A DNA stretch of 48,076 bases from Vulcanimicrobiota bacterium (GTDB lineage: Bacteria > Vulcanimicrobiota > Vulcanimicrobiia > Vulcanimicrobiales > Vulcanimicrobiaceae). Of this stretch, positions 28,531 to 34,937 are shown piece by piece. The notes beneath the pieces are model-generated. The model worked only from the letters and a program-made list of their open reading frames with translations. It had not been told where the DNA came from and made no database searches. The stretch lies in assembly GCA_027459645.1 (NCBI GenBank), contig DAIDHQ010000037.1:1-48076 (forward strand), written 5' to 3'. Positions within the stretch are counted from its first letter, which is position 1, and every line of letters begins with the position of its first letter. Both the position numbers and the translations under genes were made by a program.

Positions 28531-29685
28531 ATGGCGACGCTCACGGAACGGCAGCCGCTCCCGCGCGCGCTCACGTCAAATTTCCGGCCGAACATTCTCG
28601 ATCGCTATTTGCTCGGCGAAATGGCCGGCCCGTTCGCATTTGCATTCGTCGCGTTCTTGCTCTTTTGGGCGCTCCAAATTTTCTTCGCGGCCGCAGACTA
28701 CATTATCAATCAGCACGCGCCGTTTTTCTTGGTGCTGCGTTTCGTGTTGTTTCGCGTGCCGCCCGCGGTGCCGATGGCGTTTCCGTTCGCCTGCCTCTTC
28801 GCCGGATTGCTCGCGATGGGGCGGCTCATGGCGGACAACGAGGTCACGGCGATGCGCACGTCGGGCATTCCGATCTGGCGCATCGCGCTCACACCGCTGA
28901 TTTTTGGTTTCGCGATGTTTCTCGTAGCGTACGCTACCGACGAATGGATCGCTCCCGCTTCGGCCGATCTCTCGTCGCGTACGTTCTATCAGATCATCTA
29001 TCACACGAACGCGCTGCCCGTCGATCCGCAGTTTTTCCAGAAAGACCCCGATACCGGCAACGTCTTCTTCATCACGCAAATTCTCCCCGATCATAAGACG
29101 ATGGTCGACGTTCAAGTCTATAAGCCGGCGCGCTTCGGTGAATGGACGGAGACGTTGCAGGCGAAAAGCGCGACGGTCGATCATAGCGCGCTCGTGCTGC
29201 ACGACGTCATCGACACGCGATACGCTGCGGACGGTTACGTGAACAGCCAGCAGCACGTCAAAGAAGTGATGATCGGCTTACCGCTCGCCGAAGCGGCGGC
29301 CCAGTTCATGACCAGCATCAACTCGGACGCGAGCTCGACGTCGACCAAGGCGCTACAGACGCAGGTCGCCGCGATGCAGGCGCAAGGAATCAGCGGCTCC
29401 GCGCTCGGAACGGTGCAGGTCAATCTTGCAAACAAGGTGGCTTGGCCGTTTGCGAGCTTCATCGGGGTCGTGCTGGCCGTACCGCTCGCACTGCGATTCG
29501 GGAAACGGGGCAGGACCTTGGGAATCGCACTAGCGATTCTTGCGTTCTTCGTGTACTACTTGATGTCGTCGGCGGGCGCTGCGCTCGGAAGGAACAATTC
29601 CATCAATCCGTATCTCGCGGCTTGGCTGCCGAACATCATCATGGGATCGGCCGGCCTGTTGCTTCTGTGGCTGGAAGAACGCTGA
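28531..29685 (+). CDS. LptF/LptG-family LPS export permease
   Basis: A 384-residue permease with three N-terminal and three C-terminal helices around a periplasmic beta-jellyroll: 'ILDRYLLGEMAGPFAFAF', 'VLFRVPPAVPMAFPFACLFAGLLAMGRL', the LptF/G signature 'DNEVTAMRTSGIPIWRI', then 'NLANKVAWPFASFIGVVLAVPLALRF'. It would work with LptB to drive lipopolysaccharide to LptC and LptD. Only one such gene is here, so it is a homodimer or its partner lies elsewhere. ATG 28531 is preferred over TTG 28528. Its TGA overlaps the LptD-like start (TGATG). Confidence 0.9.
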   Translation: MATLTERQPLPRALTSNFRPNILDRYLLGEMAGPFAFAFVAFLLFWALQIFFAAADYIINQHAPFFLVLRFVLFRVPPAVPMAFPFACLFAGLLAMGRLMADNEVTAMRTSGIPIWRIALTPLIFGFAMFLVAYATDEWIAPASADLSSRTFYQIIYHTNALPVDPQFFQKDPDTGNVFFITQILPDHKTMVDVQVYKPARFGEWTETLQAKSATVDHSALVLHDVIDTRYAADGYVNSQQHVKEVMIGLPLAEAAAQFMTSINSDASSTSTKALQTQVAAMQAQGISGSALGTVQVNLANKVAWPFASFIGVVLAVPLALRFGKRGRTLGIALAILAFFVYYLMSSAGAALGRNNSINPYLAAWLPNIIMGSAGLLLLWLEER

Positions 29686-32222
29686 TGCGGTTCCTTCGCT
29701 CGCGCGCGCTCTCAGGTATCGTGCTGCAGCGCTTCGGCGCGCTGCTCGTCGCGGTGTCGATTCTCTCACCGTCCTTCGTGCCGCACGATGCCATGGCCGC
29801 GGCGGCCCTGCAATCTCCCAACGTCATGCGCCTGCTTTCCGATCAACCCTGTTCGGATCGCCGTCAGCTCTTCGGCCCCGAACCGCAACAGGTCGCGCAG
29901 GCGACGCCGGAGCCGACGCCGCCGCAGATTCTGGCGACGGCAACGCCGGGCATCTCGACGAGCCCCTCGCCCTTCCCGACGCCGAGTTTCGGGGCGCCCA
30001 CCAATTCCACGACGACGCTCTATGCAACGCCGCCCCCGCGTCCGGGATCGACGCAGAATCCCGTCACGCCGCCGCCGGTTCCCACGGCAACGCCGCCGCC
30101 ATTCAGCCAAAACGTGCCGGTCTTCGTGCAACGCGGCGGCGATACGCCCCCGCCGATCACGCCGGCCGGCCAGCTTGCGCCCGCCCCCACGCCGGTCCCG
30201 ACGGGCGTGCCTACGCTCGCGCCCGGCTATATAGCGATTCTGGCCGACAAGGTATCGGGCAGCACGAAACAGGGCGAGCCCGGCGATGCCGACGGCAACG
30301 TGCACATCCTGTACAAAGCCGAAGAGATCGTCGGCGATCACGCCCATTACGACGGCTTGCGAACCGTTACCATCACCGGTCATCCATTCATCATCGATCG
30401 TCAACAAGATTCGGTGCTGCAAGGCGACGAGATCATCTTCGACACGATCTCGCAGACGGCAAAGCTGGTTCACGGGCGCGGCACCAGTTCGCAAGGCGTG
30501 CAGCGCGGCTTGGTGCACTTTAACGCAAAAGATCTGCATACCGACGCGGACGGCGTCGGGCACGGGCTCGCGCCTACCGTTTCCACCTGCGAAAATCCGC
30601 GCGGCGGCTATCACATCAGCGGCAAAAACATGGTCGTCTATCCCGGCGATAAGATCGTCATCTACCAGGCGATCCTGTGGCTGGGCGCGGCCGCGATCTT
30701 CTGGCTGCCGAAGGTCGTGATTCCGCTGCGCACCGTCGAAAACGAAGCGCAGAAGCCCAAGTACTTTCCCGACGTCGGATACGATCAGTACGAAGGGTAC
30801 TGGATCAAGACGCGCATCACGTTCGGTAAGAACCAGTACTACTACGGCTACTATACGATCAACTATTTCAGCAAGGTCGGCCTTGGCTTGGGCTATACGG
30901 CGTACTACCTATCGCCGAAAAACAAGCGCAGCGCCTCGCTGAATTTTTACACCATCAGCGACAAACGCGTGCAAGCACGCCAGAACAACCTTGCGGTCAA
31001 TGAGATCGAGAATTTCTCGCAGACGCTGCGCGGAAATTTCGGGATGACCTATACGTCGAACTACGGCCCGTACACCAACGTTCCCGCGAATACGGGCTTT
31101 ACGAGCAACATCGCGCACACCGGTCTGCACGCGCAGCAGACCTATGGATTTACCTACAACTCCGTCGGTTCGCAATCGAACAGCACGTCGTATTCGTTCA
31201 CCGACAGCCGCCAGCTACGAAGCAACCTCCGCAACTCGGTGAACTTCAATCTGTCGTCGAGCTCGTCAAACTACGGCGGATTCTCATCGTCGAACTCGAC
31301 CGCGCACTTCAACGACTTGGCGGATCTTACGACCAGCGGCGCCGACTACCAGATGGTCTTCGACAAACAGTTCGCGCGCCAGCCGTTCGGCATCAACAAA
31401 GAACCCGAGCTGACGATTCGCCCGTACAAGATGTTCGACAACTTTCACGCGTTCCCGATCCAAGGCAACTTCGTGATCGGCGAATACTCCGAGCCCTCGA
31501 ACGCTTTTGCAACGCAGCGCGCCGACATCGGCCTGAACTTCGGGCCGCTCTCGAAAAAGATCTTCAACAGCGATTTCAACGCGACGGTCAACGTCAACCA
31601 ATATGCGTACGGAACGGGCGACTTAAAGGCGGCGATCCAGCAGAATCTCTCGCTGAACACGCCGCTCGGCAACCACTTCCTCAACAGCATCTCGTACAAC
31701 GAATCGAACTACAACGGCCCTGCCACCGTGCCGTTCCAATTCCTCGATCAGCAGCCGACGGCGAATACGAAGGCCGCGCAGGATTTGGTGCGCATCTTCA
31801 ACGGCAACACCTACAATCTCTCATTGGGCTTCTCGACGTACTTCAACGCGCAGGCGCAGCCGGTCACGTATCAACTGACCGCGCAGCCGAGTCCGCGTTC
31901 AATCGTGCTGCTCGGCGGCACGTTCAATCCCGGGCCGGGCAACGGCTTCTATCAGACGAACATCCAGGCGGCCACGCCGTTCGGGCGCGATGCGTCGCTC
32001 CAATTCGTCGGCGACATCAATTGGAAAGAAAAGGGCCGCATCGAAAACAAGGTCATCTATTACACGCGCACGATCGGCAACTGCTACCAGATTCAGACGC
32101 TCTACAATCAGTCGTTGAAGCTGGTAACGGTCTCGATCAACATTCTCGCGTTCCCGTCACGCGGCGCGACCTTCAACATCGGCCAAGCCGGCCCGATCGT
32201 CCCGACGACGTTCAACTTCTAG
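29685..32222 (+). CDS. lptD: LptD-like outer-membrane LPS assembly protein with proline-rich insert
   Basis: An 845-residue outer-membrane protein. After the signal peptide comes a ~120-residue Pro/Thr/Ser-rich linker (about 60-180), then an OstA/LptA-like beta-jellyroll ('IAILADKVSGS', 'GDHAHYDGLRTVTITGHPFI', 'QGDEIIFDTISQTAKLV') and a barrel rich in Tyr/Asn/Ser strands. 'YPGDKIVIYQAILWLGAAAIFWLPKVVIPL' is the LptD 'Y..D.PV.Y.P...P' region with a longer hydrophobic run. Direct coupling to an LptF/G gene supports the role. The disulfide Cys pattern of E. coli LptD is not seen. It may be a divergent LptD of this phylum. Confidence 0.72.
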   Translation: MRFLRSRALSGIVLQRFGALLVAVSILSPSFVPHDAMAAAALQSPNVMRLLSDQPCSDRRQLFGPEPQQVAQATPEPTPPQILATATPGISTSPSPFPTPSFGAPTNSTTTLYATPPPRPGSTQNPVTPPPVPTATPPPFSQNVPVFVQRGGDTPPPITPAGQLAPAPTPVPTGVPTLAPGYIAILADKVSGSTKQGEPGDADGNVHILYKAEEIVGDHAHYDGLRTVTITGHPFIIDRQQDSVLQGDEIIFDTISQTAKLVHGRGTSSQGVQRGLVHFNAKDLHTDADGVGHGLAPTVSTCENPRGGYHISGKNMVVYPGDKIVIYQAILWLGAAAIFWLPKVVIPLRTVENEAQKPKYFPDVGYDQYEGYWIKTRITFGKNQYYYGYYTINYFSKVGLGLGYTAYYLSPKNKRSASLNFYTISDKRVQARQNNLAVNEIENFSQTLRGNFGMTYTSNYGPYTNVPANTGFTSNIAHTGLHAQQTYGFTYNSVGSQSNSTSYSFTDSRQLRSNLRNSVNFNLSSSSSNYGGFSSSNSTAHFNDLADLTTSGADYQMVFDKQFARQPFGINKEPELTIRPYKMFDNFHAFPIQGNFVIGEYSEPSNAFATQRADIGLNFGPLSKKIFNSDFNATVNVNQYAYGTGDLKAAIQQNLSLNTPLGNHFLNSISYNESNYNGPATVPFQFLDQQPTANTKAAQDLVRIFNGNTYNLSLGFSTYFNAQAQPVTYQLTAQPSPRSIVLLGGTFNPGPGNGFYQTNIQAATPFGRDASLQFVGDINWKEKGRIENKVIYYTRTIGNCYQIQTLYNQSLKLVTVSINILAFPSRGATFNIGQAGPIVPTTFNF

Positions 32223-32230
32223 CTGGGGTA

Positions 32231-32370
32231 CGATGGTGAAGCATCGTTCGTCCGGAGCCGCTCCTCGCTCCGGCATCCTGCCTGCGCTCCTGCTGCACTT
32301 CCTCGCGCCTCTCGCCATCGTGGCTCCGGCGCTCGTTCAGAGCCTCCGTCCGAACGATACTTCACCATCG
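32231..32370. repeat. 140-bp element with 27-bp imperfect inverted ends (MITE- or REP-like)
   Basis: CGATGGTGAAGCATCGTTCG begins a left arm at 32231-32257; the right arm at 32344-32370, read on the other strand, matches it at 24 of 27 positions. The 86-base interior is C-rich on the + strand (many CTCC/GCTCC tracts) and has smaller internal repeats such as GGCTCC/GGAGCC. It lies in the gap between two convergent genes, where it could also act as a bidirectional terminator or RNA-processing stem. No second copy occurs in this window and no transposase is nearby. A leftward frame over it is compositionally odd, probably not a gene. Confidence 0.6.
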
Positions 32371-32390
32371 ATGCCCGTTGCGTAGAGATG

Positions 32391-32594
32391 TTATTGGCCG
32401 GCGTCGCAGGGCGGGTGGCCGCAGGCACACATTTCGGTTTCGATGTCGGTCTCCGCGTCGCGGCAGTAGTCGCTGCAGTAACTCTCGCCCATCGTCGCGC
32501 CCATCATCGTGCACTGACAGATCTCGTGCGCGCAGATGACGCCTTGCTGGAAATCGGATGCATCGCTGATCATGGCACGTTCGTACCCCGTCAT
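32391..32594 (-). CDS. Prokaryotic metallothionein
   Basis: A 67-residue Cys-rich protein of the SmtA/BmtA type that binds Zn, Cd or Cu by thiolates. The ligand pattern is 'CAHEICQC', then 'YCSDYC', then 'CACGHPPC': eight Cys and two His in the family order C-x-H-x2-C-x-C ... Y-C-S-x2-C ... C-x-C-G-H-x2-C. An N-terminal stretch ('MTGYERAMISDASDFQQGV') precedes it. The ATG overlaps the TGA of the upstream lipoprotein gene (ATGA), so both are translated from one message. No metal regulator is adjacent; the CsoR-type and ArsR genes are distant. Confidence 0.85.
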   Translation of the reverse strand: MTGYERAMISDASDFQQGVICAHEICQCTMMGATMGESYCSDYCRDAETDIETEMCACGHPPCDAGQ

Positions 32595-33436
32595 GGATTG
32601 TTCGTAATGTCCCCGGAGAAAATGATCGACGCCGTGTCGCCGTTGTTTCCGGTGTGAGAGCCGACTACCGGATTGAACGTTCCCGTATCAAAAGCGGAAA
32701 CCGTGTTGAGATTGGGCGATTGCCACGTCGTGTCGGTCGCTCCACCCTGTCCGAGCGAATCGACGATTTGGGATGCGACGTCCGTCGCTGCGCCGTGGAC
32801 GATGAAATAGTTGAAGAGCCAAATCGACGCCGTGCCGGGCACCGGCGTCGCGCTGGGAGTGGGTGACGGCGTCGGCGATCCGCTCGGACTTCCCGTCGGA
32901 CTCGGCGTCGGAGACGGCGTGGCGGTCGGCGTCGCACTCGGCGTCACGGTCGGGGTCGCGGTCGGACCCGGCGTCGCGTTGAACGACGCCAGGGTGCGCC
33001 GAAACTGCACCGTGAACTGACTGTTCTGGCCGTTGCTGTTCGGTTGGAAATAGAGATCGTTTCCGTTGACGAACGGCACGCTCAACCACTGTGGAGCGCC
33101 CTGCGAGCCCGGGGGACGATAGCCTTGCCATACGGAGGCGCCGACGGAGCCGCTCGTGCCGTCGATGGCCACCATGAACCAATAGCCCTGGTACCCGTTG
33201 TTAAACCCTTGTGCGATCGGCTGTTGATTGTTGCCGCTGGTATTAAACATAGCGACGTACGAGTACGTTCCAAAATTCATCGGACCGGAGGTCTGGAATT
33301 TCACTTGCATGAATCCCGATGGCAAGCTTCCTGAAGGGCCAGTACTTCCGTTTTTATTCGGCGTCACTTGACGCCCGCACGCTGCAACCATGAGCGCACT
33401 TACCGAACCAACGACGAAACCGGATCTACGAATCAT
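32591..33436 (-). CDS. Lipoprotein with Thr/Pro/Ser-rich linker, function unknown
   Basis: A 281-residue lipoprotein starting at ATG 33436 after GAGGAG; the signal peptide 'SGFVVGSVSALMVAACG' holds the lipobox. The frame extends upstream, but those residues are not signal-like. A first beta-rich domain (about 40-150, Asn/Gln/Gly-rich) is followed by ~45 residues of Thr/Pro/Ser repeats ('TPTVTPSATPTATPSPTPSP') and a second ~80-residue domain. I know no family. Its ATG and that of lnt on the other strand share the bases CATG. Coupling to metallothionein suggests a role in metal handling, which is inference only. Confidence 0.7.
   Translation of the reverse strand: MIRRSGFVVGSVSALMVAACGRQVTPNKNGSTGPSGSLPSGFMQVKFQTSGPMNFGTYSYVAMFNTSGNNQQPIAQGFNNGYQGYWFMVAIDGTSGSVGASVWQGYRPPGSQGAPQWLSVPFVNGNDLYFQPNSNGQNSQFTVQFRRTLASFNATPGPTATPTVTPSATPTATPSPTPSPTGSPSGSPTPSPTPSATPVPGTASIWLFNYFIVHGAATDVASQIVDSLGQGGATDTTWQSPNLNTVSAFDTGTFNPVVGSHTGNNGDTASIIFSGDITNNP
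32835..32975. repeat. Low-complexity GGCGTC / GTCGGC tract
   Basis: Degenerate short repeats (GGCGTCGG, GTCGGAC) encode the Thr/Pro/Ser linker of the lipoprotein on the - strand. Such tracts are prone to slippage and could vary in length between strains. It is a coding repeat, not an independent element. Confidence 0.6.
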
Positions 33437-34937
33437 GCTCTCCTCAACGTGGGTGCGACAGACTGCCGCGGCGGCTCTCGCCGCCATCCTGCTGGCATTG
33501 GCATTCCCACGCGCCGGACTTGCGTGGTGCGCACCGCTGGGTGCAGCGGCGCTGTTCTGGACGTGGGAAGGCGCGTCCTGGAAACGCGCGTTCGCCCTTG
33601 GTTGGTTCGCTGGATGGATCTTTTTTACCATCAGCTTCTGGTGGTGGACCGTCACGATTGCGACCGTCGTCGGCCCGCTCGCTTATGCGGCGGTCGTCGT
33701 TGCATCGGCGATTGAAGCGCTCGCGTTCGGCGCGGCGGCAATCGTCGCTTCCGGTATCCGCACGCGCGCGATGCCCGCGCTCGCGCCGCTAGGCGGCGCG
33801 GCGGCTTTTACCATGCTCGAATGGATTCGCTCGGTCGGTCCGCTCGGCGTGCCGTTCGCGCAACTCGGCTACACGCAGGCCGACACGCCGCTCAAAGCGA
33901 TCGCGGCATACATCGGCACGATCGGCATAACGTTTACGCTCTGCGTTTTCGGCGCGTATCTCGCCGATGCAATCGTCCGAAAGACGTGGCGTACGTTTGC
34001 CGTTACGACCGCGTGCATCGTCGTTGCGACGGCGGCGGCATGGATTGCGTGGCCGGCGCGTTATCTTCCGAAGCCGGCGATTCCCGTCGCGGCGGTGCAA
34101 GGCAACATCACGCAAACGCTCAAGTGGCAGCCGGGCGCGGAAGTGCTTGCGACGCAGCGCTACGAAGCGATGACGCAAGCGGCGATTGCGCACAATCATC
34201 CAAAGCTCGTCGTTTGGCCAGAAACGGTCATCGCGCTGCGCAACGGCGGGTTGAACGAACATCCCGAACTGCTGAGCGCGTTCGCGCAGCTCGCGCGTCG
34301 CGGCGATATGACGCTGATCGCCGGCAGCCTGTCCTTGCGCAACGACCGTTTCTACAACAGCCTGTTCTTCTTCACGCCGCTCGGCTTGACGTCGGTGTAC
34401 GACAAGCATCAGCTCGTGCCGTTTGCGGAACATTTTCCCGGCAAAGCGTGGCTTGGATGGCTGCCGTACATCGGACAACTCAACGGTCATCTCGCGGAAG
34501 GCTCGGGTACGATCGTCTTTCCGACGAGCGCTGGCCTCGTCGTCGGGCCGTTGATTTGTTGGGAATCCGCGTTCGGCGACCTTGCCTACGACGAAGCGCG
34601 GCAAGGCGCACAAGTGCTGGTGGTTTCTACCGATGACGCATGGTTCGGAACGTCGTCGGGTCCCTACCAGCACGCGCAGATCGCGCAGCTTCGCGCGATC
34701 GAAAGCGGTGAATACGTCGTGCGCGCGGCGGCTACAGGCATCAGCGGCGTCATTAATCCCGATGGAACGTGGCAAAGCCGCACGACCTTGGAAACGCAGA
34801 CGACCGCATTCGGCGACGTCGGCCTTCCGGCAGGTTCGGTGTTCGCGCACATCGGACCGAACGGCGTGTTCCTCGGATTATTCGTGCTCGCGCTGATCCT
34901 GCCGTTTACGGGCCGAGGGCGCAGTGATCAAGCGTAA
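33435..34937 (+). CDS. lnt: Apolipoprotein N-acyltransferase
   Basis: A 500-residue inner-membrane enzyme that adds the third acyl chain to lipoproteins. About seven N-terminal helices precede a nitrilase-like domain with the triad Glu263 ('VWPETVI'), Lys324 ('VYDKHQLVPFAEHFP') and Cys375 ('LICWESAF'). The many lipoproteins in this window are its likely substrates. ATG 33435 begins just before the first helix; an earlier ATG at 33390 would overlap the divergent lipoprotein gene by 47 bases. The GTG of the next gene lies inside its last codons. Confidence 0.92.
   Translation: MLSSTWVRQTAAAALAAILLALAFPRAGLAWCAPLGAAALFWTWEGASWKRAFALGWFAGWIFFTISFWWWTVTIATVVGPLAYAAVVVASAIEALAFGAAAIVASGIRTRAMPALAPLGGAAAFTMLEWIRSVGPLGVPFAQLGYTQADTPLKAIAAYIGTIGITFTLCVFGAYLADAIVRKTWRTFAVTTACIVVATAAAWIAWPARYLPKPAIPVAAVQGNITQTLKWQPGAEVLATQRYEAMTQAAIAHNHPKLVVWPETVIALRNGGLNEHPELLSAFAQLARRGDMTLIAGSLSLRNDRFYNSLFFFTPLGLTSVYDKHQLVPFAEHFPGKAWLGWLPYIGQLNGHLAEGSGTIVFPTSAGLVVGPLICWESAFGDLAYDEARQGAQVLVVSTDDAWFGTSSGPYQHAQIAQLRAIESGEYVVRAAATGISGVINPDGTWQSRTTLETQTTAFGDVGLPAGSVFAHIGPNGVFLGLFVLALILPFTGRGRSDQA

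Follow-up and report, generated by a model that had tools for sequence, protein, structure and literature searches.

Several kinds of small palindromic sequence have been described. The Rickettsia palindromic elements (RPE) are dispersed palindromes of about 100-150 bp, which lie between genes and also form open-frame inserts within genes (PMC10969869). REP, BIME and REPIN sequences are short dispersed intergenic hairpins, often located downstream of genes and sometimes arranged as back-to-back inverted pairs; a REP is a single hairpin of 20-40 nt with a conserved foot tetranucleotide. MITEs are small, non-coding, multi-copy and palindromic, and their distribution among relatives is patchy. 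The small RNAs of the CsrB/RsmZ type carry multiple hairpins with CAGGAUG or ANGGA loops, and their density of GGA on one strand is high. Long RNA stems are hard to create through single mutations. In template switching, a neighbouring stretch is copied as its reverse complement, which generates perfect stems and corrects those already present (PMC8794818).

The palindrome analysed here lies in a stretch of 48,076 nt, the whole of which is referred to as the window. The preliminary description had reported 27-base ends matching at 24 positions across an 86-base interior and a location between convergent genes, and both statements hold on direct reading of the two P1 arms and the flanking frames (Table 1). 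In a search for inverted repeats in the window, the palindrome was the first listed, with 32-nt arms that are 84% complementary. The RNA fold of 32200-32400 reached -87.8 kcal/mol, compared with a shuffled mean of -64.7 (z -6.2), and 0 of 200 shuffles were as good. The interior had also been called C-rich, which applies to the plus strand only; the structural strand is the minus strand. No U-tract or T-run was found at the element, so the combination of a G+C-rich hairpin and a T run that marks an intrinsic terminator is missing. The palindrome is real, and the reading as a local terminator only is rejected because copies of it are dispersed and its pairs covary, as shown below. Regarding the neighbouring genes, the upstream frame was considered as LptD from its neighbourhood, an assignment that was dropped since Pfam gave no match, and the ORF is left unnamed. 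Pfam gave no match for the small Cys-rich frame on the other side either, the product of which appears metallothionein-like by eye. In addition, an apolipoprotein N-acyltransferase gene (Pfam) is located near the element at 33387-34937 (+).

Table 1. Positions of the palindromic element, its parts and the adjacent reading frames in the window.
Feature	Position	Strand	Description
Whole element	32231..32370	-	Structural strand (RNA or single-stranded DNA) is the minus strand
Covariance-model match	32241-32360		113.6 bits, E 6e-27
P1 5' arm	32344..32370	-	Minus strand reads CGATGGTGAAGTATCGTTCGGACGGAG; outer part site-specific
P1 3' arm	32231..32257	-	Begins 9 nt past the stop codon of the gene ending at 32222
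Hairpin P2	32305..32332	-	GCGCC GGA GCC ACGAT GGC GAGA GGCGC; conserved core hairpin
P2 loop	32317..32321	-	ACGAU in the window copy; AGGAU in most copies (CAGGAUG including the closing pair)
Hairpin P3	32267..32287	-	Stem sequence differs among copies, with compensation
P3 loop	32275..32279	-	AGGAU in the window copy (CAGGAUG including the closing pair)
Upstream convergent ORF	29442..32222	+	Putative start; large secreted or outer-membrane-like protein; stop 9 nt from the element
Downstream convergent ORF	32391..32594	-	Small, Cys-rich, 67 aa

A search for copies elsewhere had been suggested for this palindrome, and copies proved to be numerous. In the genome that contains the window (G000; Ca. 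Eremiobacterota, 3.14 Mb in 47 contigs), a DNA search found 17 places at E <= 1e-5, which have about 95 nt of the middle in common and whose ends are unlike in sequence, yet paired within each copy. A covariance model, built from an alignment of 19 copies, detected about 25 strong copies in the same genome (E < 1e-7). Within the family, 77 of 99 genomes had matches (E <= 0.01), and within the class 81 of 117 (E <= 1e-4), the last set comprising 29 of 48 genera and all three families sampled. The count in a single genome rises to at least 26, and all copy counts are lower bounds, part of the candidates having been scored in each genome. The repeat is thus multi-copy, and it is patchy among relatives. 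A single copy with no conserved pairing, which the preliminary description had said would leave only a local terminator, is clearly contradicted. No Rfam family was matched at a meaningful score; a match to MIR8788 was dismissed as chance (31 bits, the cut-off being 124 bits). A pattern scan of genome contigs returned one Eremiobacterota MAG and one chance match at a Synechococcus gene junction, and a short pattern of 16-17 bases returned 31 stretches on viral contigs, which may be chance. We consider it likely that the palindrome belongs to a hitherto undescribed family of small, folded mobile elements, copies of which are dispersed over Eremiobacterota genomes. Mobility is deduced here from the distribution of the copies, because no mobility enzyme was found and no insertion was caught between near-identical strains.

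On the minus strand, the element has a core of about 80 nt with two hairpins (P2 and P3), enclosed by the long stem P1. The order is P1 5' arm, GGCUCUGAACGAG, P2 with a loop that is mostly AGGAU, CGAGGAAG(N)GCAGCAG, P3, GCGA(C/G)GAGCGG and P1 3' arm. Covariation of the stem, proposed earlier as a check, is pronounced. The consensus fold of the 19-copy alignment shows two-sided changes at 31 of 35 pairs. Among 110 distinct sequences, the alignment of which was fitted to the model so that pairing counts lean toward it, two-sided compensatory changes occur at 34 of 35 pairs (1276 such cells vs 379 in shuffles), 95.5% of cells are paired vs 60% in shuffles, and the covariation score is 0.835 vs 0.19 when shuffled. 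The covariation is lost when the partner is slid by 1-3 columns. The model-fitting bias is insufficient to explain it, as P1 and P3 vary far too much. Within P1, G-U pairs outnumber A-C (291 vs 133 overall; 147 vs 107 outside the model region, p 0.014), and one conserved pair beside P3 is U-G in 41 cells and broken in none. The excess of G-U over A-C therefore marks the strand with the GGA loops, the minus strand of the window, as the structural one, either as RNA or as single-stranded DNA. By eye, tandem sheared G-A pairs (CGAG/CGAG) are possible on both sides of P2.

Several variants were noticed among the copies (loci and genomes are given by L and G numbers). In a subfamily comprising L064, L065 and L066 (G000:C12:24845, C22:149637 and C22:203791), L134 and L104, a longer or additional hairpin replaces P2 and the P3 module is shared; L065, L066 and L134 contain TTCGCAGGAGGCGAA or similar, and L104 is a more diverged hairpin. 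Two elements, L044 and L063 (G000:C30:224427 and 224669), lie between nusG and rplK, and the related hairpin L104 occupies the same junction in G010. L307 (G043:C21:1-170) is a short version without P2, and the same intergenic region of G044 carries a full copy with unrelated arms (L168). L062 (G000:C28:248200-248363) has an extra 37-nt palindrome within P2. Pairs of elements in opposite orientation, back to back and BIME-like, occur at L056/L062, L099, L206, L209, L229, L025, L185 and L191. L207 (G061:C9) combines the 5' arm found in L169 with the 3' arm found in L187; the two no longer pair, and the copy looks like two elements fused by recombination or misassembly. A second, unrelated palindromic repeat of the CTTCGACAAGCTCAGGATGACA type occurs frequently in the intergenic regions of these genomes (for example, the right flank of L042, L084:1711-1794 and L181:1005-1065), and is nested within one element (L134).

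The main feature beyond the preliminary description is that every copy has outer arms of its own, derived from the insertion site. Among copies with near-identical cores (about 99%), only the inner part of the arm is common, and the outer 10-30 bp are site-specific yet almost perfectly paired. For example, L198, L222, L226 and L228, which have cores about 99% identical and lie at unrelated sites, are paired over 45-49 bp, with 18-25 nt alike between any two. In other groups with near-identical cores the common inner part measures 8-29 nt; the exception is the G021/G080 set, in which most of the arm is common. In some copies the stem is perfect, as in L166, where it continues for 37 bp outside the model. 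When arms of two different copies were combined into chimeras, the median paired length was 14 bp, compared with 30 for real arms. The median arm identity between copies is 0.60 vs 0.40 for random pairs, and some arms are partly inherited from copy to copy.

At three loci (L043, L053 and L177; gene names there were assigned by eye), one arm is the neighbouring gene's own coding or stop-codon sequence and the other arm is an inverted copy of it. The left arm of L043 comprises the upstream gene's end together with the downstream gene's start, and is conserved in G010, G074 and G001, which lack the element at this site; the right arm is an inverted copy of roughly 40 nt with about 80% identity, and the reading frame is open across the element by eye. 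At L053, a gmhB-like gene contributes its 5' coding end as the left arm, a sequence that relatives without the element there also have, and the right arm is an inverted copy of it. At L177, the left arm includes an atpG-like gene's stop codon, which recurs inverted in the right arm; the orthologous site in G056 is a short, element-free gap. In addition, 19 orthologous stretches from relatives contained no copy, the best match being 17.6 bits and within a coding region.

These features are probably best explained by a non-autonomous mobile hairpin that owes both the formation and the upkeep of its stem to template-switched copying of target DNA. The mobile unit would comprise P2 and P3, which make up the folded core of about 80 nt, and roughly the inner 15-25 nt of P1; it would be moved by a factor that would act in trans and might read the P2 and P3 loops. 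At arrival or soon after, DNA synthesis would switch template at the closing stem of the core and produce an inverted copy of 10-30 nt of the adjoining target DNA, which would enclose each element in its own long, near-perfect, site-specific hairpin. Later template switches would keep the arms matched. Surviving copies would mostly lie just past stop codons, with one orientation favoured, and would sometimes form open-frame inserts in genes.

Group IIC introns target terminators. By analogy, the elements might have inserted into ready-made terminator hairpins, the outer arms being the old target stem and no inverted copying being involved, which would agree with their position just past stop codons and their preferred orientation. 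A possible target of this kind is L230:1685-1731, beside recA in G044, where a perfect 21-bp inverted repeat surrounds TNNA; however, the Ns in this 4-nt loop probably hide an unassembled or withheld element, and the direction of copying may be reversed at this recA-recX site. Long perfect hairpins without a core are almost absent: none occurs in the 48-kb window, and among the three in 327 kb of relatives two are repeats of the CTTCGACAAGCTCAGGATGACA type and one has Ns in the loop. The outer stem was therefore made with the element and not found ready-made. No such hairpin was found at the orthologous empty sites, and the arm at L043 and L053 is protein-coding sequence conserved in relatives. 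We thus regard insertion into existing hairpins as very improbable.

The two arms also change together. L177 (in G043) and L157 (in G044) occupy the same site with highly similar flanks, and their arms differ by two-sided substitutions and by a 4-nt indel that is mirrored in both arms. The pairs L163/L185, L152/L199 and L192/L194 show 5, 8 and 11 two-sided changes and zero broken pairs of the consensus fold, a count that, over the four orthologous pairs, is biased by drawing the base pairs from the consensus fold of the same sequences. At another site (L080/G007), the arms of G007 form a perfect stem of 48 bp, and G061 differs in both arms at matching positions. Template switching would account for such matched changes, although strong selection on an RNA stem could also yield two-sided changes, a mirrored 4-nt indel being harder to obtain in that way. 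The arms might even be kept solely by selection on a functional RNA, with no template switching; the G-U excess in P1 and the unbroken U-G pair beside P3 are what a selected strand should show. However, this asymmetry is weak outside the model region, a folded single DNA strand would likewise tolerate G-T, the mirrored indel of L177/L157 speaks against it, and selection alone does not explain a perfect host-derived stem at a new site. We therefore find selection alone quite improbable, and prefer a stem built and kept by template switching.

A driver of this mobility was sought among known enzymes. The Y1 HUH transposase (RAYT, PF01797) has 0 matches in the own genome and matches in 4 of 99 family genomes, the E. 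coli control being positive. The reverse transcriptase (PF00078) has 0 matches in the own genome and matches in 11 of 99 family genomes, and an element driven by a reverse transcriptase (a group II/IIC intron or other) was rejected for the own genome. No parent transposon was found. No clear target-site duplication was found when flanking duplications, which the preliminary description had proposed to look for, were sought; matches between end flanks were close to those of shuffled pairs at k = 3-5 and 8, with a slight excess at k = 6. The initial suggestion of a MITE/REP-type repeat or structured RNA therefore stands in part: the element is indeed repeated at dispersed places and structured, with pairs that covary, but REP membership is not supported in a genome without a Y1/RAYT transposase, and neither is classical MITE anatomy, since the copies do not have a terminal inverted repeat in common at the arm ends and the flanks yielded no direct duplication.

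Most copies are intergenic; 5 of 144 fall within called ORFs, and L043 was added by eye. The called ORFs with an insert include a polymerase-like gene (imuC/dnaE by eye), the linker of which is an insertion hot spot with open frames in several genera (L054, L134, L170, L211 and L082). With gene calls from a simple home-made codon-score caller, 131 copies have a right-hand neighbour, and in 104 of these that gene ends toward the element, the median distance between stop codon and stem being 9.5 nt; in the same number of copies (104/131) the structural strand runs antisense to its neighbour. The left-hand neighbour shows no preference in orientation (70 vs 57). Convergent gene pairs are enriched at elements (48/131 vs 20/134 neighbouring pairs). 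This location, together with the very stable stem, raises the possibility that the hairpin is kept as a barrier at gene 3' ends, stopping or stabilising the transcripts of the adjacent gene. However, the gene calls come from a home-made caller, the U-tract of a terminator is lacking, a simple barrier needs no strand-specific, sequence-conserved core with conserved loops, and the empty orthologous sites manage without one. The location may equally reflect survival of insertions where they are least harmful, and we consider a role as 3'-end barrier somewhat unlikely.

A second possible role involves CsrA. The hairpin loops would offer their GGA to CsrA dimers, the element being a mobile CsrA-binding RNA that acts as a putative sponge or brings nearby transcripts under CsrA control; this concerns function and not the mode of spread, and is compatible with the template-switching explanation. 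C-AGGAU-G is the most frequent P2 loop, present in 88 of 144 folded copies, and GGA occurs in most P3 loops despite the variable P3 stem. CAGGA(U/A/C)G is the CsrB repeat, RUACARGGAUGU is the CsrA SELEX site, and CsrA prefers GGA in hairpin loops (PMC7652899). The core has 4.5 GGA vs 3.1 in dinucleotide shuffles, and CsrA is encoded in the own genome with the RNA-binding residues L4 and R44 conserved. Among genomes at least 90% complete, elements are carried by 48 of 59 with csrA vs 3 of 11 without it (Fisher p 0.0008, kinship ignored), a tally in which two csrA-lacking genomes were counted as element-free, as every element-bearing genome was listed. However, G010 and G074 carry copies without csrA, about a quarter of P3 loops are ACGAU and have no GGA, and the P2 loop of the window copy is ACGAU as well. 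Moreover, the antisense orientation noted above would require an own promoter or convergent transcription, and the hairpins selected by CsrA are mostly short-stemmed. We consider CsrA binding an unlikely function. The csrA gene lies in a flagellar cluster (L302; G000:C12:19000-28000) with flgK-, flgL-, fliW- and flagellin-like genes, and a variant element follows the flagellin gene there. It is similarly doubtful, and would join both ideas, that the element inverts and copies its landing site at each insertion and so spreads CsrA-type loops through the phylum as a mobile, self-enclosing CsrA ligand.

In this family, a single core is found in many different near-perfect stems of site-derived sequence, and the copies number well over a hundred. 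Such a natural series allows a direct test of the idea that hairpins are built and maintained by template switching. Moreover, Rfam lacks this large, structured family of repeats, which occurs in a phylum of which very few members have been cultured. The family may also distribute sites to which a global RNA-binding regulator binds.

The nearest known kinds are RPEs, REP/BIME sequences and MITEs, and the tests that define REPs and MITEs fail here. The RPE traits given at the outset recur in the present family, including probable open-frame inserts in genes (L043, L050, L054 and the imuC cases), the comparison being made with the published description (PMC10969869). Unlike RPEs, the present family lies mostly outside genes, belongs to a different phylum and has outer arms that differ in each copy and are site-derived; regarding an RPE-like conserved encoded peptide, no frame of the structural strand is open in more than half of the copies. 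It shares with REP/BIME sequences the dispersed intergenic hairpins, often downstream of genes and sometimes in inverted pairs, but the Y1 transposase is missing from the own genome and from 95 of 99 family genomes, conservation does not extend to the outer stem, and a core of about 80 nt with two hairpins and P1 replaces the single REP hairpin. MITEs are alike in all the general traits listed above and differ in having a terminal inverted repeat common to the outer ends, a target-site duplication and a parent transposon; the strong RNA-like internal covariation is a further difference. CsrB/RsmZ-type RNAs are alike in their hairpin loops and in the one-strand density of GGA; the present family, known from sequence alone, differs from them by two hairpins per copy, many dispersed copies, a long outer stem and no Rfam match. 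Finally, the hairpins of template switching (quasipalindrome correction) resemble the present stems in being made or repaired by reverse-complement copying (PMC8794818); they are known as scattered single mutations, and here they would be a regular event in the life of one mobile family.
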